Below are positions 1,892 to 18,420 of a stretch of 21,666 nt of DNA, in pieces (position 1 is the first letter of the stretch; each line of letters opens with the position of its first letter). Location of the stretch: positions 1 to 21,666 of the IMG/VR virus record IMGVR_UViG_3300043409_000409. The stretch is one strand, 5' to 3'. The stretch is from a virus. The position numbers and the translations under genes are program-made. Below the pieces are notes generated by a model that made no database searches, was not told the origin of the DNA, and was given only the letters and a program-made list of their open reading frames with translations.

Positions 1892-2725
1892 ATGGCAAAA
1901 ACAAAAATTAGTGAATATTCAGCAACGTCAGCAAACAACACAGATATTAGTAATATTAATATTGCTGAAGGATGCTCACCTGCTAACGTAAACAATGCTA
2001 TTAGAACAGTAATGGCACAGCTTAAAGACTTACAAGCAGGCACGTCAGGTGATACTATTCCTGTTACAGCAGGTGGCACAGGCTCTGCTACAGCGAGTGA
2101 TGCTAGAACAGCTTTAAGTGCTGCTAAGTTAGGTGCTAACTCTGACATTACATCTATTACAGGTCTTACTACGCCACTTACAACAGCACAAGGCGGAACA
2201 GGCACAGCTTCTACTACTTTTGCAAGCCTTACTACCAACGTAACAGGTACATTACCTGTAGCAAATGGTGGCACTGGATTAGCAACATTAACAGCCAATA
2301 ATGTTCTTTTAGGTAACGGAACTTCTGCACCATCATTTGTTGCACCAAGCACATCAGGTAATCTTCTTACATCTAATGGCACTACATGGGCAAGTACAGC
2401 TCCTGTTACAGGTATTGGTTCAGGTCAATCTTGGACTAATGTAAGAACCAGTCCAGGAAGAAGTACTGGCACTACTTATACAAATTCTACAGGTAAGCCT
2501 ATTGAAGTGATGGTAGTAATAAATGCAAGTGCTGCAGGAACTGGGTCTACCACATCTACTGTAGTTGTAAATGGAGTAACTATTGGTTCAGCTGTTGCAT
2601 CTGAAAGTAGTGGTTTTTATAATATTCCAACTACATGGTCATTTATTGTACCTGATACACATACATATTCAGTCACTTTATCTACTACTGCTACAGTAAC
2701 ATATACTTGGGCTGAATTAAGATAA
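1892..2725 (+). CDS. Tail fibre / receptor-binding-type protein
   Basis: A 277-residue protein preceded by an AAGGA site. The N-terminus contains AEGCSPANVNNAIRTVMAQ, a helical segment commonly seen at the virion-attachment end of phage fibres. The middle is a chain of low-complexity modules (VTAGGTGSATASDARTAL, LTTAQGGTGTA, LPVANGGTGLATL) typical of fibre shafts. The last ~100 residues are Thr/Ser-rich and beta-predicted and end in VTYTWAELR, possibly a jellyroll-like tip. The stop overlaps the first base of the next ATG (TAATG), indicating coupling to the tail hub gene. A second fibre beside the one at the window start suggests a branched or two-component adhesion device. Confidence 0.7.
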   Translation: MAKTKISEYSATSANNTDISNINIAEGCSPANVNNAIRTVMAQLKDLQAGTSGDTIPVTAGGTGSATASDARTALSAAKLGANSDITSITGLTTPLTTAQGGTGTASTTFASLTTNVTGTLPVANGGTGLATLTANNVLLGNGTSAPSFVAPSTSGNLLTSNGTTWASTAPVTGIGSGQSWTNVRTSPGRSTGTTYTNSTGKPIEVMVVINASAAGTGSTTSTVVVNGVTIGSAVASESSGFYNIPTTWSFIVPDTHTYSVTLSTTATVTYTWAELR

Positions 2726-4560
2726 TGCCCACACAAAGATTACAGTTTAAAGAATGGCTACCTGACCAACCATCTATTTTAGACACAGTATCAGAAGCTA
2801 ATAACGTCATTCCTTTAGCTGTAGGGTATGGTGCATTTAAGTCAGCAGTAAACTATTCAGGTGCTGCATCAGAAGACCTTACTAACTGTTTTGCAACAAA
2901 GTTAGATAGTGACGTTTCTGTATTTGCAGGCGGTCTTACTAAATTATTTAAACTAGACTCATCTACTTTAGCTTTAGATAATGTTGGTAAAAGTGCATCA
3001 CGAACAATAACTAACGTAGCACTAACATCTAACGTAGCTACTATCACTACTGCTTCTGCTCATGGCTATAGCATAAATGATGTTGTAACAGTAGACGCAA
3101 GTAATAACGTATTTGATGGTAGTTATACTATTACTAGCGTTCCTACTTCTACTACTTTTACTTACGCTAAAGTCAACGCAGATATTCCAAGTGCTGCTGC
3201 TACAGGAACAGTTATAGGAAGTGATTATACAGGCACATATAGATGGCAATTCTTACAATTTGGTAGTTATGCACTAGCCACTAATGGTTCTAACAAAGTG
3301 CAGTATTACGATACAAACGCATCTTTTTATTTTGGTGACTTAGCTGCATCTGCTCCTATTGCAAAATATATAACAGTAGTTCGTGATTTCGTAGTGTGTG
3401 CAAATATAGGTGGAGGCACAAATCCATCAAAAGTGCAATGGTCAGATATAAACGACCCAACAGACTGGACAGCAGGCGGTGCATCACAAAGTGACTTCCA
3501 AGAAATTCCAGATGGCGGGGATATAACTCAAATCGTTGGTGGCGAATATGGTTTAGTATTCCTAGAAAAAACTATTGTTAGAATGTCTTATATTGGCTCA
3601 CCATTATTCTTTCAGTTTGACACTATCTCACGTAATGTAGGATGTATAGAAGGTGGCTCTGTAGCTCAATATGGTGGCGTAACATATTTCTTATCAGATG
3701 ACGGATTTTATTCATGTAACGGTCAACAAATTACTGGTATTGGTGCAGAAAAGGTAGATAGATACTTTTTTAACAACGCTAACATTGGCGATATTGATAC
3801 TATATCAGCAGCAGTAGACCCAGAACGTAATCTTGTGATTTGGGATTACACAACAGTTTCAGGTAACAGAGCATTACTTATCTATAACTTTGAAACGCAA
3901 AAATGGTGTGAAGCTGATACAGATGTAGATTATCTTTCTACCCTTGCCACTACAGGCGTATCACTAGATGGTATAGATACTGCATATAACGTAACAGCAG
4001 GTTCTTTTGTAGCCACAAAACAATATACGATTAGAAGTATAGGCACAACAGACTTTACAGCTATAGGTGCAGTTGCTAATACAGTAGGTGTATTATTTAC
4101 AGCTACAGGTGTAGGCTCAGGCACAGGTGTAGCTATTGATATGGCAGCATCAGCAACCGCACTTAAGACTGTAGACACTCTTACTACTACACTAGATGAC
4201 AGACTATATAAAGGTGGTAAATTCCTATTTGGTGGTGTTCGTGATACTAAAATTATCACATTTACAGGATTACCAGCTACAGCAACTATCACTACAAACG
4301 ACCTAGAATACGGTTATAACTCTGTGCTTACCCTTATCAGACCTTCTGTAGATAATGGCTCTGCGGACGTTTCTGTGGCTTCTAGGCGTATGTTAGACGA
4401 TACTCTTACATACTCAACTGCTGTATCAGCAAGTCAAGAAGATAGATGTGCTGTAAGAAGTGCAGGTCGTTATCACAGAGTAAGTCTTACCCCAACTGGT
4501 GCAGACTGGTTATCAGCTATTGGCATGGATTTGGATTATTCTACACAAGGTACTAGATAA
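2725..4560 (+). CDS. P22 gp10-like tail hub / stabilisation protein
   Basis: A 611-residue protein. Motifs running through it (YRWQFLQFGSYALATNG at ~172, VQWSDINDPTDW at ~243, FLSDDGFYSCNG at ~330, a core rich in beta blades, and a C-terminal RYHRVSLTPTGADW) match the tail hub that closes the head-tail channel in P22-like podoviruses (gp10). Two regions look like inserted modules: about residues 94-166 (an Ig-like VATITTASAHGYSINDVVTV unit) and about 419-471 (YTIRSIGTTDFTAIGA and following). Both module types recur in unrelated phage tail proteins. It overlaps the next gene by one base (TAATG). Assignment rests on remembered family features and gene order, not on a search. Confidence 0.65.
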   Translation: MPTQRLQFKEWLPDQPSILDTVSEANNVIPLAVGYGAFKSAVNYSGAASEDLTNCFATKLDSDVSVFAGGLTKLFKLDSSTLALDNVGKSASRTITNVALTSNVATITTASAHGYSINDVVTVDASNNVFDGSYTITSVPTSTTFTYAKVNADIPSAAATGTVIGSDYTGTYRWQFLQFGSYALATNGSNKVQYYDTNASFYFGDLAASAPIAKYITVVRDFVVCANIGGGTNPSKVQWSDINDPTDWTAGGASQSDFQEIPDGGDITQIVGGEYGLVFLEKTIVRMSYIGSPLFFQFDTISRNVGCIEGGSVAQYGGVTYFLSDDGFYSCNGQQITGIGAEKVDRYFFNNANIGDIDTISAAVDPERNLVIWDYTTVSGNRALLIYNFETQKWCEADTDVDYLSTLATTGVSLDGIDTAYNVTAGSFVATKQYTIRSIGTTDFTAIGAVANTVGVLFTATGVGSGTGVAIDMAASATALKTVDTLTTTLDDRLYKGGKFLFGGVRDTKIITFTGLPATATITTNDLEYGYNSVLTLIRPSVDNGSADVSVASRRMLDDTLTYSTAVSASQEDRCAVRSAGRYHRVSLTPTGADWLSAIGMDLDYSTQGTR

Positions 4561-4877
4561 TGGCTCGTAGTGATATGTACCGTAAACTACCTTGGACAGG
4601 TGGTGACCCTAGAAGTATAGCAGAAATTGTAAACAACCTTGTAGAAGGTAAGTCTAATAATACAGGCTCATTCTCAACTACTATTAGCACTACAACTACT
4701 ACGCTTAGTGATGAACGTATAGGCTTTAACTCAGTTATTTTATTTATGCCATTAGACCATCTTTCATCTCAAGAACTTAAAGATATTTACTTTACTAGCT
4801 TTGCACAAGGTTCTTGCACAGTTAATCATGGAAGTCATGCAGTCGCAAGGAACTATCGTTATATAATAGTAGGATGA
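4560..4877 (+). CDS. Small phage structural protein, unknown function
   Basis: A 105-residue protein directly coupled to the hub gene upstream. It starts with a basic segment (MARSDMYRKLPW), has a Ser/Thr-rich stretch STTISTTTTTLSDERIG, and a C-terminal part with ILFMPLD and CTVNHGSHAVARNYRYIIVG, which suggests a small beta sandwich. Similar short proteins sit beside gp10-type hubs in aquatic podoviruses. A virion role is inferred from position only. The stop overlaps the next ATG by four bases (ATGA). Confidence 0.6.
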   Translation: MARSDMYRKLPWTGGDPRSIAEIVNNLVEGKSNNTGSFSTTISTTTTTLSDERIGFNSVILFMPLDHLSSQELKDIYFTSFAQGSCTVNHGSHAVARNYRYIIVG

Positions 4878-5272
4878 TATTACACTACATACCTAAAGAC
4901 CAGTTACGAGAACATTGGGATTATGTTAAACATGGTCTTGAGTTAGTTCGTGCTAAAGGTCACATGGAATGGATAATAGAAGATGTCTATTGTGATTGTT
5001 ACGAAAATAGGTCTATGTTATTTCTAGGTCTAGTGGATAACAAACCAGTAGGATTTGTAGTGCTTCAACCTATAGGTAATACACTTCATGTGTGGGCTAC
5101 ATGGTCAACACTTAATGATGAAACATTATTCTATCAAGCATGGCAAGAAATACAAGCAATAGCAAAACAAGGCGGTAAGTCTAGGGTTACATTTTCATCT
5201 CAGCGTAAAGGTTGGGAACGCAAAGCTAGGGCATTAGGATTTAAACCACAAACATGGGAATTTATACTTTAA
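4874..5272 (+). CDS. GNAT-like N-acetyltransferase family protein
   Basis: A 132-residue protein. The central beta strands (MLFLGLVDNKPVGFVVLQPIGNTLHVWATW, read in segments) and the end RKGWERKARALGFKP resemble a minimal GNAT fold, in which the last part carries the helix and strand that follow the acetyl-CoA site. The classical Q/R-x-x-G-x-G/A loop is not clearly present, so catalytic activity is uncertain. Related short GNAT-like proteins are common in the tail or ejection region of phages, where their role (virion modification or a structural use of the fold) is unknown. It overlaps the upstream gene by four bases. Confidence 0.6.
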   Translation: MILHYIPKDQLREHWDYVKHGLELVRAKGHMEWIIEDVYCDCYENRSMLFLGLVDNKPVGFVVLQPIGNTLHVWATWSTLNDETLFYQAWQEIQAIAKQGGKSRVTFSSQRKGWERKARALGFKPQTWEFIL

Positions 5273-5282
5273 GGAAAGCAAT

Positions 5283-6404
5283 ATGAAATTATCTAACGCA
5301 TTTAAAATACTTAATCCAATTTGGATTATGGATAACTTTTTAACATTTTATGGTGGTGGTGGCGCTCCAACTAACTCTACGACTACAACTGGCATTGACC
5401 CATCTGTAAGACCTTATGTTACATGGGGACTAGAGCAAGCTAAAAACTTATACTCACAACCAGGTCCTGCATATTTTCCTGGTCAAACTTATGTAGGTCC
5501 ATCTGGACAAACTACATCAGCTTTAGGTTCAGCAGAACAAATTGCTAGAGGTGGTAATCCCTTATTGCAAGGTGCTTTACAACAACAACAAGATGTTATT
5601 GGTGGTCAATACTTACAAAACAATCCTTACTTTAACCAAGCTATGCAAGGTGCTGCACAAGGTGCTACACAAAACTACAATGATGCTATTAAAGCTGCAC
5701 AAGGCAGTGCTTCTATGGCTGGTCGTTATGGCTCTGGTGCATCTGCTGATATTCAAAACAGAGCAGCGAATACTTTAGCTTCAACACTTGCCAATAAATA
5801 TGGTGAACTTAGTTATCAGAACTATGCGAATGAACGTGCTATGCAAAACCAAGCAGCACAAAATGCACCTGGTTTATCTCAAGCACGTTACCAAGATGCT
5901 AACCAATTATTAAACTTAGGTCAAATTGGTGAAGGTTATCAAGAAAAAGCATTACAAGGTGATATTTCTAAATATAACTACGAACAAAACTTACCGTATC
6001 AACAACTTCAAAACTATGCTTCACTTATTCAAGGCACTCCAATGGGTCAAACATCTACTACCCAATCATCCGGTGGTGGCAAGATAGTTTGTACCGCTAT
6101 GAACGGTGAATATGGCTTTGGTAGTTTCCGTAACGCTATCTGGTTAGCTCAATCTAAAGACTTAGACCCTGCATACGAAAAAGGTTATCACACTCTATTC
6201 TTACCATTAGTAACCTATGCTTACAAGAGTGGTAAAAAGAACCCTCTACAACGCATTTTAAGGGGTGTTTTAGAGCATATCGCAAGACATAGGACTGCTG
6301 ATATATGGAAACAAAAAAGAGGTAAAACTAGAGACAATTTAGGCATGATTTATCGTGCTATCTTAGAACCTATTTGTTATGTAGTAGGAAAGGTAGGCAG
6401 ATAA
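5283..6404 (+). CDS. Probable internal virion / ejection protein
   Basis: A 373-residue protein preceded by AAGGAAAG. After a short N-terminal segment there is a Gly-rich hinge (YGGGGAP), then about 220 residues rich in Gln, Ala, Asn and Tyr (for example GALQQQQDVIGG, NYNDAIKAAQGSASMAGRYGSG), mostly helical. A second domain after residue ~265 starts at KIVCTAMNGEYGFGSFRNAIWL and ends in a basic helical region (RILRGVLEHIARHRTADIWKQ). Two-part proteins like this recur after the hub gene in aquatic phages and are usually taken as DNA ejection or virion lumen proteins. An alternative start at 5328 (MDNFLTFYGG) lacks a better binding site, so 5283 is kept. Confidence 0.6.
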   Translation: MKLSNAFKILNPIWIMDNFLTFYGGGGAPTNSTTTTGIDPSVRPYVTWGLEQAKNLYSQPGPAYFPGQTYVGPSGQTTSALGSAEQIARGGNPLLQGALQQQQDVIGGQYLQNNPYFNQAMQGAAQGATQNYNDAIKAAQGSASMAGRYGSGASADIQNRAANTLASTLANKYGELSYQNYANERAMQNQAAQNAPGLSQARYQDANQLLNLGQIGEGYQEKALQGDISKYNYEQNLPYQQLQNYASLIQGTPMGQTSTTQSSGGGKIVCTAMNGEYGFGSFRNAIWLAQSKDLDPAYEKGYHTLFLPLVTYAYKSGKKNPLQRILRGVLEHIARHRTADIWKQKRGKTRDNLGMIYRAILEPICYVVGKVGR

Positions 6405-6973
6405 TGTCAGACCCAATAACAGCAGCAATGATAGGTGCAGGTTTAAGCGGTGGTACATCTTTACTTAGAGGCAAAAGTTTAGGTAAATCATTAAAAAGTG
6501 CAGCCATAGGTGGTGCATTAGGCGGTGCTGGTGGTTATCTAGGTGGAGCTATGAGTGGTGCAGGAGCAGCAACAGGTGCAGCAGCTCCAGGCACTATTGG
6601 CACAGAACTTGTATTCAACCCAGCCACAGGTACATATTTAAACCCTGCATATTTTGCAGGAGCAACTTCTAGCATGCCATTATACACAGGTGCTGGAAGT
6701 GCATTATCACAATTAGGCACAGGCTTAGGTTCTTTAGGTAGTGAAATAAATACAGGTCTTGGTAATTTAGGCGGTTCAGCTTTAGAATCAATGAAAGCTA
6801 ATCCATTACAAACAGCAGGTTTAGGAATGAATATTTATAGTGGATTAAATGCACAACCACAAGAAGCACCACCACCTCAATTAGGTATTATTAGACCACA
6901 ACAATCAGGTCAATACAACCCTGTATTAAATGCAATGCTACAAAAACGCAACCCATATTCATTATTAGGATAA
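6404..6973 (+). CDS. Gly/Ala-rich probable ejection protein
   Basis: A 189-residue protein whose start is set at the ATG at 6404, which overlaps the upstream stop (TAATG) and has AAGG upstream; a longer in-frame start at 6374 would lie inside the previous gene. The first ~70 residues hold Gly/Ala-rich segments with GxxxG spacing (MIGAGLSGGTS, GGALGGAGGYLGGAMSG), compatible with a membrane-inserting helical hairpin. The C-terminal half is Gly/Gln/Pro-rich and ends in a polar tail. In P22-like phages, proteins of this character are injected and help form a channel across the cell envelope. The role is inferred from composition and location. Confidence 0.55.
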   Translation: MSDPITAAMIGAGLSGGTSLLRGKSLGKSLKSAAIGGALGGAGGYLGGAMSGAGAATGAAAPGTIGTELVFNPATGTYLNPAYFAGATSSMPLYTGAGSALSQLGTGLGSLGSEINTGLGNLGGSALESMKANPLQTAGLGMNIYSGLNAQPQEAPPPQLGIIRPQQSGQYNPVLNAMLQKRNPYSLLG

Positions 6974-16050: not shown

Positions 16051-16262
16051 GATTTATCCAATAGTAATGAATAGCCAAATAATCCTATTTCCAAATAACA
16101 ACTATGCAAAGTAATAGCAAAACTTAAATGTAATATCATTGGTTTATATTTGTAAACAGTTATATTATTATATGGACCATCGTCTTTATGTAATCTCCAT
16201 TCTATTGTTTGGTCTACATAATTACCAAATGGATTATCAATTCTTAGTGAAATATCTATCAT
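16047..16262 (-). CDS. Small hypothetical phage protein
   Basis: A 71-residue protein. It starts ISLRIDNPFGNY, has an internal beta-rich segment and ends LEIGLFGYSLLLD, reminiscent of a widespread phage family whose members end in an 'ELGLLGYSxxF' phrase. Function not known. The ATG overlaps the stop of the cell wall hydrolase by one base (TAATG), so the two are coupled. Confidence 0.55.
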   Translation of the reverse strand: MIDISLRIDNPFGNYVDQTIEWRLHKDDGPYNNITVYKYKPMILHLSFAITLHSCYLEIGLFGYSLLLDKS

Positions 16263-16654
16263 TAGTAAAACTCCATTCTGCCTAGTTTAACTACTTTCTT
16301 TTTTTTCCAAATATGTTGCATGTCTATACTATCATCATGAAAATAATATGTAGTATTTCCAACAGGGTTAGCATACTTCTTAAAAAACAATGTGTCTACT
16401 ACTAAAAGTTTAGTCTTTAATAATGCTGCTTTATCTATATTCTTTTCATTAACTTTCATCATATCTTGTATGCCTATAAATTGACCTTTGGAAAAAGTTA
16501 CCTCACACGCATCTTTACCAAATTTACCAGACCTAACTCTATTTATTATAGTGAAAAGCACGCCCAATTTGGCTTCAAGTGGTTGTGTATTTGCTTCTGT
16601 AAAAATTGCCAAGCTAATACAGTGAACATCTGCTTCTGAAACATGTATATCCAT
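16262..16654 (-). CDS. SleB-type cell wall hydrolase (endolysin candidate)
   Basis: A 130-residue protein matching the Hydrolase_2/SleB fold: LAIFTEANTQPLEAKLGVLF at 15-34 with the likely catalytic Glu20, IINRVRSGKFGKDACEVTF at 36-54, QF at 58-59, and the C-terminal TTYYFHDDSIDMQHIW. Family members cleave the glycan strand of peptidoglycan. No signal peptide is present, so export would need a holin. It is on the opposite strand and about 5 kb from the rightward lysis cassette, which is unusual for an endolysin. A ribosome binding site AAAGG precedes the start. A weak promoter candidate lies upstream. Confidence 0.75.
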   Translation of the reverse strand: MDIHVSEADVHCISLAIFTEANTQPLEAKLGVLFTIINRVRSGKFGKDACEVTFSKGQFIGIQDMMKVNEKNIDKAALLKTKLLVVDTLFFKKYANPVGNTTYYFHDDSIDMQHIWKKKKVVKLGRMEFY

Positions 16655-16740
16655 GATACCTTTCTAATGATTATCCGGTGTCTAGCAAACCCACATAAGC
16701 GTATAATTCTACTATAAATCTAAAAGAAAGGAGAACCGCC
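16655..16740. promoter_or_regulatory. Divergent control region between hydrolase and pqqA
   Basis: An 86-base gap separates the leftward hydrolase start from the rightward pqqA start. Rightward, TATAAT at 16702-16707 is a perfect -10 box, but no good -35 lies at the proper distance. Leftward, GATAAT (16670-16675) has only a poor -35 (TTATGT, 17 bases away). AAAGGAG at 16727-16733 is a strong ribosome binding site for pqqA, seven bases before its ATG. Confidence 0.45.
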
Positions 16741-16812
16741 ATGTGGACAAAACCATCAGCTACTGAAATGCGTCTAGGATTTGAAATAACTTTATACGTA
16801 TTCAATCGCTAA
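16741..16812 (+). CDS. pqqA: PqqA, precursor peptide of coenzyme PQQ
   Basis: Encodes 23 residues. It begins MWTKP, continues TEMRLGFEITLY and ends VFNR. Glu15 and Tyr19 are spaced E-x3-Y exactly as in the enterobacterial 23-residue PqqA, where PqqE joins these side chains and later enzymes turn them into pyrroloquinoline quinone. Conserved Trp2, Lys4-Pro5, Arg11, Gly13 and the terminal Arg also match. The gene has AAAGGAG at ideal spacing, a TATAAT upstream and a strong terminator right after the stop. It points rightward within a leftward gene block, so it is a separate transcription unit. No pqqB, C, D or E is in the window; the product would enter the host's pathway. This is probably an auxiliary metabolic gene taken from a PQQ-producing host. 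Confidence 0.85.
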   Translation: MWTKPSATEMRLGFEITLYVFNR

Positions 16813-16818
16813 TTAAAC

Positions 16819-16846
16819 AGGGGAGGTAAAACTCCCCTTTGTTTTT
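16819..16846 (+). terminator. Intrinsic terminator of pqqA
   Basis: A perfect seven-base-pair stem (AGGGGAG with CTCCCCT) with a six-base loop is followed by TTGTTTTT. It begins six bases after the pqqA stop. In the leftward direction the same hairpin follows the SSB-like gene stop and is followed by a weaker T-rich run, so it may end transcription both ways. Confidence 0.85.
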
Positions 16847-17084
16847 AAAATGGGACATCTGACAAGTCCTCACCCTCAGCAACAGGCTTTAGTCTTTCAT
16901 CCGTTGCTACCATTGCTACAGCACCACTAATAAACTTACCATTAGCACCTTCTCTTACCCAACCTGATAATGTAAATTCAATACCATCTACATTTAACTT
17001 TCCTCTATAGTCTGGTCGTTTAGGATTATCCCCTTTATCATTCTTGTTTAACGTAAACGTGTTTGTGTTATCATACTGAGCCAT
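16845..17084 (-). CDS. Small SSB-like protein with acidic C-terminal tail
   Basis: A 79-residue protein. The ATG at 17084 has AAGGA at correct spacing and is preferred over the one at 17093. It starts MAQYDNTNTFTLNKND, has a beta-rich core (GKLNVDGIEFTLSGWVREG, then GKFISGAVAMVAT) and ends EDLSDVPF, which resembles the acidic tip (D-D-I-P-F) used by bacterial single-stranded DNA-binding proteins to recruit partners. The core has the size of a small OB fold. It lies beside the exonuclease and annealing protein genes, consistent with recombination or replication. It could instead be an unrelated small phage protein. Confidence 0.55.
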   Translation of the reverse strand: MAQYDNTNTFTLNKNDKGDNPKRPDYRGKLNVDGIEFTLSGWVREGANGKFISGAVAMVATDERLKPVAEGEDLSDVPF

Positions 17085-17226
17085 CTTCGTCATCCTTTTT
17101 AGTTGTTAATTGTGTATTGCCTTGCTCTTGTATCTTAGGTACTAATTGATTAACAGCTTCAAATGGTAACTTAGATAAAGCTAACAATATCAAGTTTACT
17201 TCTTCTACAGTTAATTCTAATTGCAT
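17071..17226 (-). CDS. Small conserved phage protein
   Basis: Encodes 51 residues starting MQLELTVEEVNLILLALSKL and then PFEAVNQLVPKIQEQG. Such short helical proteins (LTxxEVNLILxALxxLPF) recur in many phages, often next to replication or recombination genes; function unknown. The start lies two bases after the exonuclease stop, and its own end overlaps the SSB-like gene by 14 bases. Confidence 0.65.
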   Translation of the reverse strand: MQLELTVEEVNLILLALSKLPFEAVNQLVPKIQEQGNTQLTTKKDDEDGSV

Positions 17227-17228
17227 AC

Positions 17229-17861
17229 TTACTCCTTCAGTTTAATAATTGTTTTGTCTACTTCGTCTAAAAACTTAATTACTTCTTCTTCTAATTCTTT
17301 TATAAAATCATCATCCCTGTGTAATCTTGATACAAAGAGTTGTAATTCTACAGGAAAGTTAGGATTATAGGAAATAAAATCTACCCACTTAGCACCGGTG
17401 CAAGCCATTTGCCATTGCATCTGAGGGACATATTTGTTGGGAATCCATTTACTCATAAGCGTATTAGTATGGGTTGTTTCTATAGGGCATTTAATCTCTA
17501 TAAGGCCAGCATACTTCCCATCCTCTTCTGCATTTACAGCTCCGTCAGGACTAGCACCACTCATGGCAATAGTTGGGTGGTCAAAGAATCCTACCTCTGT
17601 AACAGATACCCCCCTAGTTCGCATATAAAGCTCCCTAGCAGCACTTTCTCTTTCAATACCATCTAGCATAGCCTGATTAACAAAACTATCGCCTTTCTTG
17701 CCTGTAAGACGTTCTGATACAAGTTGGATAAGGTAGTTTTGACGTGATGTAGATACGCCTGTTTTAGTCTTGGCGATAACATCCGATATTCTGGATGCTG
17801 TCACCTTACCCATTCTAATTTTATGCCATTCATCACTTCTTTGCTCAAATTCATAGTGCAT
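17229..17861 (-). CDS. YqaJ/lambda-type recombination exonuclease
   Basis: A 210-residue protein with the order of motifs seen in lambda exonuclease-like enzymes: QRSDEWHKIRMGKVTAS at 7-23, GIERE at 68-72, SPDG at 104-107, the EIK of LIEIKCPIE at 120-128, and QMQWQMACTG at 147-156. Asp106, Glu122 and Lys124 are the expected catalytic residues. The enzyme degrades one strand of double-stranded DNA from the 5' end and leaves 3' single strands for the annealing protein encoded two genes upstream. It overlaps the HNH gene end by eleven bases. The Leu/Glu-rich C-terminus has no extra domain. Confidence 0.85.
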   Translation of the reverse strand: MHYEFEQRSDEWHKIRMGKVTASRISDVIAKTKTGVSTSRQNYLIQLVSERLTGKKGDSFVNQAMLDGIERESAARELYMRTRGVSVTEVGFFDHPTIAMSGASPDGAVNAEEDGKYAGLIEIKCPIETTHTNTLMSKWIPNKYVPQMQWQMACTGAKWVDFISYNPNFPVELQLFVSRLHRDDDFIKELEEEVIKFLDEVDKTIIKLKE

Positions 17862-18420
17862 ATAATTTCCCTCTCTTATGTCTTAAATGTGCAGCACCTT
17901 TTGATATTCCAAGTTCTTTAGCAATATCAGATATGTGAGTTAATTTACCTTTCCAATCAATCCAAATAGAACAATCTTTATTTCTTTGTTGTTGTGAATT
18001 GGTTGCCCATCTTACATTACCAGGCTCATATCCTTTATTATTATCAATTCTATCAATAGACTGACCTTTTTGTTTTTTACCCATGTAAGCATAAAACTTT
18101 TCAAAACTATCAATCCATTCTTCATATATTGTAATACCTTTAGCACCATACTGATTATAATCTTTACTATTAATATTTAAACATCTATCTTTCATTGCAG
18201 TCCATGTTGAATATTCTAAAGAATGACGCATACCATGTGTTTTATGTTTATCTGCACCACGTAATGTAGCACAATTTTTACATGATTTAACTCTGTTATG
18301 TTTAATTCTACTTGCTAATCCAATATAAAGCTCTCCACAGTCACATTGGCATTTCCATAATATATGACCATCTTGAGCTTTACCTACAGCATCTACAAAT
18401 GTTAATTGATTATACTTCAT
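17851..18420 (-). CDS. HNH homing-type endonuclease
   Basis: A 189-residue protein. Residues 24-50 carry Cys residues of a zinc-binding motif (CQCDCG, then CKNC). The HNH core follows: H62-G63, TWTAMKDRCLN, YGAKGITIYEEW, and SIDRIDNNKGYEPGNVRWAT at 121-140. The last 30 residues look like a helix-turn-helix (THISDIAKELGISKG). This is the usual free-standing phage HNH endonuclease, which nicks or cuts DNA at or near its insertion site in related phages. It sits between the annealing protein and the exonuclease and overlaps the latter by eleven bases. A candidate promoter lies in the 66-base gap upstream, suggesting an independent unit. Confidence 0.8.
   Translation of the reverse strand: MKYNQLTFVDAVGKAQDGHILWKCQCDCGELYIGLASRIKHNRVKSCKNCATLRGADKHKTHGMRHSLEYSTWTAMKDRCLNINSKDYNQYGAKGITIYEEWIDSFEKFYAYMGKKQKGQSIDRIDNNKGYEPGNVRWATNSQQQRNKDCSIWIDWKGKLTHISDIAKELGISKGAAHLRHKRGKLYAL

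Follow-up and report, generated by a model that had tools for sequence, protein, structure and literature searches.

The 21,666-nucleotide stretch of viral DNA analyzed here, indicated below as the window, contains at positions 16741–16812 of the plus strand a pqqA gene of 23 codons plus a TAA stop. The gene is likely to be an auxiliary metabolic gene, giving the PQQ precursor to the host PqqBCDE and supporting methanol dehydrogenase during infection.

The pqqA gene and its surroundings

The predicted product, MWTKPSATEMRLGFEITLYVFNR, has 23 residues before the stop, as PqqA from Methylophilaceae does. Translation shows Glu15 and Tyr19 in the E-x3-Y spacing, as reported in a preliminary description of this DNA; these are the residues that become cross-linked in known PqqA to form PQQ. 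The peptide covers model positions 1–19 of 19 of the Pfam profile PF08042, at 39.9 bits (E 3.8e-10; curated cut-off 21.1 bits), and scores 37.7 bits against the NCBIfam equivalog TIGR02107 (curated cut-off 20 bits). Both scores are well above threshold and support the family assignment made in the preliminary description, where a sub-threshold score had been set beforehand as a reason to abandon it. A six-frame PqqA scan of the whole window returns pqqA as its sole match (E 8.4e-11), while no matches were found in 14 control genomes; on sequence grounds, a chance match is excluded and the identity of the gene as PqqA is established.

With bacterial PqqA, as described by the two profiles, the peptide shares the full-length match, the Glu-x3-Tyr motif, W2, P5, R11 and G13; it differs in being phage-encoded and in not adjoining pqqBCDE. 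At positions 12, 16, 18 and 21 it has Leu, Ile, Leu and Phe in place of the Phe, Val, Met and Met of the phage consensus. In the 21.7 kb of the window, pqqA is the only pqq gene recognised: pqqB-E are absent, in agreement with what had been noted earlier about the remaining pathway. No family matching phage PqqA was found in PHROGs, and scanning the window for Rfam families and tRNAs gave no matches.

Phage genes lie on both sides of pqqA, coding for an endolysin/hydrolase, an SSB-like protein, a YqaJ exonuclease, a Sak annealing protein, a helicase, a virion protein and an ejection-like protein. Given these flanking genes, and the presence of the same gene in cultured phages, the window gene is part of a genuine phage genome. 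The divergent neighbour (16262–16654, minus strand) is an endolysin/cell-wall hydrolase gene (phrog_938 endolysin, E 3.2e-12), also found next to pqqA in the environmental phage ctXG6705. The convergent neighbour (16845–17093, minus strand) is SSB-like, with 67% identity to the annotated putative SSB beside the ctXG6705 pqqA. The adjacent recombination module includes a YqaJ-type exonuclease gene (17229–17861, minus strand; phrog_149, E 2.5e-44), 59% identical to its ctXG6705 counterpart and 50% to that of Venkman. The order hydrolase, reversed pqqA, SSB, exonuclease is common to the window and ctXG6705, at 37–67% identity; helicase, Sak and exonuclease have Venkman relatives at 46–67%. The window phage type is related to ctXG6705 and, more distantly, to Venkman. 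Between the exonuclease and Sak genes, a 189 aa ORF (17851–18420, minus strand) resembles, by eye, an HNH homing endonuclease; no counterpart was found in ctXG6705, Venkman, L011, L018 or L019.

The gene features the anatomy of a stand-alone cistron. A Shine-Dalgarno site, AAGGAGAA, is located ahead of the ATG at 16728–16735 (plus strand), and a ribosome binding site of this type precedes all 165 of the 165 phage pqqA copies. Directly 3' of the gene, the scan indicates a strong intrinsic terminator at 16819–16846 (plus strand), composed of AGGGGAG-GTAAAA-CTCCCCT (stem 16819–16838) and of the T run TTGTTTTT. Among phage pqqA copies, 74 of 164 are followed by a terminator, compared with 78 of 1680 control phage ORFs. 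Since the flanking genes both read the opposite way, pqqA needs its own promoter. Sequence and upstream comparison point to a putative -10 element, TATAAT, at 16702–16707 (plus strand), within the block AAGCGTATAATTCTA, largely common to the relatives L010, L018, L058, L068, L102 and L124; of 162 phage copies, 59 have a perfect TATAAT upstream, whereas shuffled sequences give 17. As no convincing -35 is present nearby, the promoter is a candidate only; nor is the element listed by the promoter consensus scan. The ORF list also contains an antisense ORF of 44 aa (16671–16805, minus strand) overlapping pqqA, which is probably spurious.

Between -55 and -10 of pqqA, 37% of the phage copies and 28% of those from hosts have hairpins of at least 6 perfect pairs (background: 12% and 5%, respectively, in shuffled sequences; 7.5% in control ORFs). 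Their sequence is variable, and they may act as mRNA-stabilising or regulatory stems. The hairpin is absent in the window copy.

Distribution in phages and hosts

A search with the 23-residue peptide across 50,697 annotated phage records produced 12 matches: nine Methylophilales-infecting isolates (Venkman, P19250A, MEP301, MEP401, MEP402 and four Melnitz), ctXG6705 and two Acinetobacter records. The count of nine is given with the presence of MEP431-434 and HIM624-A in the searched collection undetermined. The cultured pqqA-bearing Methylophilales phages span several unrelated types. The Acinetobacter phage MD-2021a matches were rejected: in the record examined, one of the two, pqqA belongs to a bacterial pqqABCD(E) operon rather than to a phage. 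The terminase relatives nearest to Venkman, after ctXG6705, are pelagiphages (about 44–50% identity), and these are absent from the pqqA matches in the 50,697 records, which indicates an association with host range: the gene follows the host. In the plasmid collection, pqqA from other genera is found, mostly annotated as such among the matches listed.

The preliminary description had suggested that gene callers usually skip a gene so short. None of the ten phage records carrying the gene names it; in ctXG6705 and Melnitz, a hypothetical ORF was placed instead on the opposite strand. The deposited hypotheticals antisense to pqqA, UOF77531.1 (ctXG6705, L003 2067–2195) and QZI94879.1 (Melnitz, L007 2461–2556), are probably spurious. 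In Melnitz (L007 2498–2580), pqqA ends about 11 bases upstream of a tRNA-Leu gene, and the two may be co-transcribed. As far as searched, the descriptions of Venkman, MEP301, MEP401/402 and Melnitz mention no PQQ gene; in the Melnitz description PQQ appears only as a growth supplement.

The preliminary description had proposed to look for short PqqA frames in aquatic viral contigs: pattern scans of IMG/VR revealed unannotated pqqA in at least 120 contigs. The first pattern fixed Glu15 and Tyr19; a second, blind scan, specifying residues 1–14 only and thus avoiding circularity, was therefore used for statements about conservation. Among the IMG/VR contigs there could be misassigned pieces of host DNA; neither the cultured phages nor the bait-based set relies on these. 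For the latter, prevalence was evaluated by baits with no relation to pqqA, the terminase of Venkman and the helicase of the window, counting only records of at least 20 kb: 14 of 15 carry pqqA (5 of 6 for the terminase, 9 of 9 for the helicase). Shorter bait-retrieved records without pqqA may simply stop before the locus. The one exception among the 15, the 35 kb relative G211, contains in its available sequence neither pqqA nor a recognisable degraded copy, and the short contig L016 is also without it, at least in the available sequence. In 11 of 12 hydrolase relatives, pqqA lies beside the hydrolase gene. Far from being rare, pqqA is near-constant in the methylophage lineages tested. A 52 kb viral record, G219, contains two clearly different pqqA copies (L426, L427) separated by about 39 kb; the contig may be over-length or chimeric, or the phage may have two copies.

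Of 79 host loci, 15 have a pqqB gene near pqqA; none of the 166 phage loci does. The linkage to pqqBCDE, usual in bacteria, was not seen for phage pqqA; it is not a defining feature, as most retrieved host copies are orphans. The orphan pqqA genes of Methylophilaceae (PMC4109929) are likewise stand-alone mini-genes with ribosome binding site and terminator, coding for a near-identical peptide; they differ in being chromosomal and in featuring a terminator more often (77 of 90, against 74 of 164 in phages).

A phage-encoded PqqE was rejected, the 49 phage records analyzed giving three weak radical-SAM matches, all below cut-off; co-supply of methanol dehydrogenase was rejected as a general rule, being found in one of 49 pqqA phage records. 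This sole carrier, G169 (72 kb), encodes XoxF. In its 32000–44000 segment (L425), a XoxF-like gene (1990–3864), a formate dehydrogenase alpha-like gene (3944–6784) and pqqA (about 9888) all lie within 8 kb, a methylotrophy module larger than the pair of methanol dehydrogenase and pqqA described for Lake Baikal.

The host of the window phage is most likely a member of the Methylophilaceae, as inferred from its relatives. pqqA is present in 149 of 150 genomes of this family, with a mean of 4.2 copies and at least two copies in 141, and pqqB/C adjoin it in some host loci: the host carries both a homologue of the phage gene and the pathway that it feeds. Methylophilaceae genomes are reported to contain 3–12 pqqA copies and typically one pqqBCDE set (PMC4109929); the hosts themselves thus scale the consumable part of the PQQ pathway, and the phage adds to it.

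Selection on the peptide and alternative explanations

In the blind scan, Glu15, Thr17, Tyr19 and a length of exactly 23 codons are kept in 120 of 120 loci among the matches listed. Close and distant relatives all retain Glu15 and Tyr19, whose loss, indicated beforehand as a finding that would refute the PqqA reading, was not seen. For codons 15–23 of these loci, among the matches listed, pS is 0.65 and pN 0.08 (pN/pS 0.12), which shows purifying selection on the reactive residues in phages. Such heavy synonymous divergence under a held peptide is difficult to reconcile with a role of the DNA itself, as a site of recombination or attachment that matches the many pqqA copies dispersed in the hosts, the peptide being irrelevant. 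Compared with the nearest of the host copies retrieved, moreover, the window copy has 10 differences in 72 bases; selection therefore acts on the peptide, and a DNA-level role seems hardly tenable. The same pN/pS ratio, again among the matches listed, argues against a recently captured, functionless host fragment carried by chance, an origin for which the very short gene and the many available host copies would offer an opportunity. Such a fragment would not be expected to occur in unrelated phage types, nor to keep its position across relatives as distant as the window, L018, L019 and ctXG6705, and this explanation can be practically dismissed.

Two other explanations accept that the peptide matters. 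It might be a decoy, competing with host PqqA for PqqD/PqqE, lowering PQQ and diverting the cell from methanol oxidation: leader residues are conserved, and an excess of substrate could in principle, by inference, titrate PqqD. A decoy, however, needs no reactive residues, and both are invariant in the 120 loci; host PqqA is matched exactly by some phage peptides, which should hence be ordinary substrates, and in G169 pqqA co-occurs with XoxF. We regard a decoy as very improbable. PQQ made from the phage peptide might, alternatively, have a different use, for example in another PQQ-dependent dehydrogenase or for redox protection, and most pqqA phages are indeed without a dehydrogenase of the methanol dehydrogenase family; yet the hosts named are methylotrophs, and the core genome of these bacteria includes both PQQ synthesis and XoxF (PMC4109929); such a use is unlikely.

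Proposed role and significance

In PQQ synthesis, PqqE with PqqD joins the Glu and Tyr of PqqA, and the pair is later excised and oxidised to PQQ; PqqA is consumed stoichiometrically, one peptide per PQQ. According to the preferred reading, a supply of precursor to the host pathway, the phage would make the 23-residue substrate peptide from its own small transcription unit, expression during infection being inferred. Host PqqD/PqqE would then cross-link Glu15 to Tyr19 of the phage peptide, and a host protease, PqqB and PqqC would complete PQQ; processing by the host enzymes is equally an inference. The reusable enzymes would persist in infection, while the short peptide would have to be made anew: the peptide would be the cheapest part to supply, because each cofactor costs one peptide, whereas the enzymes can be used again. 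The inferred benefit to the phage is that its copy may keep XoxF/MxaF loaded with PQQ, and methanol oxidation running, as host expression declines. Since only one of the 49 pqqA phage records contains a methanol dehydrogenase, this benefit must come from the host dehydrogenase. The synthesis of the latter may stop in infection, which would count against the proposed benefit. The psbA gene of cyanophages offers an analogy, as there too the phage provides only that part of a host energy system which is rapidly consumed; psbA, in contrast, encodes a protein subunit, while pqqA encodes a peptide consumed as a substrate.

Whether phage pqqA had been reported before was left undecided in the preliminary description: it is already known, from the Lake Baikal phage population VP_266, which carries pqqA and methanol dehydrogenase (Coutinho et al. 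2020, PMC7678222), and pqqA is listed among viral genes found in reservoirs (PMC13188868). VP_266 also has a predicted Methylophilaceae host; it is T4-like and carries methanol dehydrogenase, while the window contig, of a small-phage type, features pqqA alone. Near-universality in the lineages tested, the stand-alone form and the oversight in cultured genomes across unrelated groups were not found reported in the open-access literature, to which the search was limited.

It seems somewhat more probable to us than the contrary that pqqA is a hallmark gene of nearly all methylophages, in unrelated groups of tailed phages, retained since the peptide, and not the enzymes, limits PQQ in infected methylotrophs, and missed because it is 23 codons long, with an antisense ORF annotated in its place in two phage types. 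Auxiliary genes below the usual gene-calling limits are systematically lost, as indicated here by the lack of a PHROGs family and of annotation in any of the ten phage records. In coastal sea and lakes, the Methylophilaceae (OM43, LD28/Methylopumilus) are abundant and oxidise methanol. If the hallmark holds, the 23-codon pqqA would serve as a simple genomic marker by which methylophages could be recognised when their host is unknown and, if methylophages almost always carry it, viral influence on methanol oxidation would be the rule.
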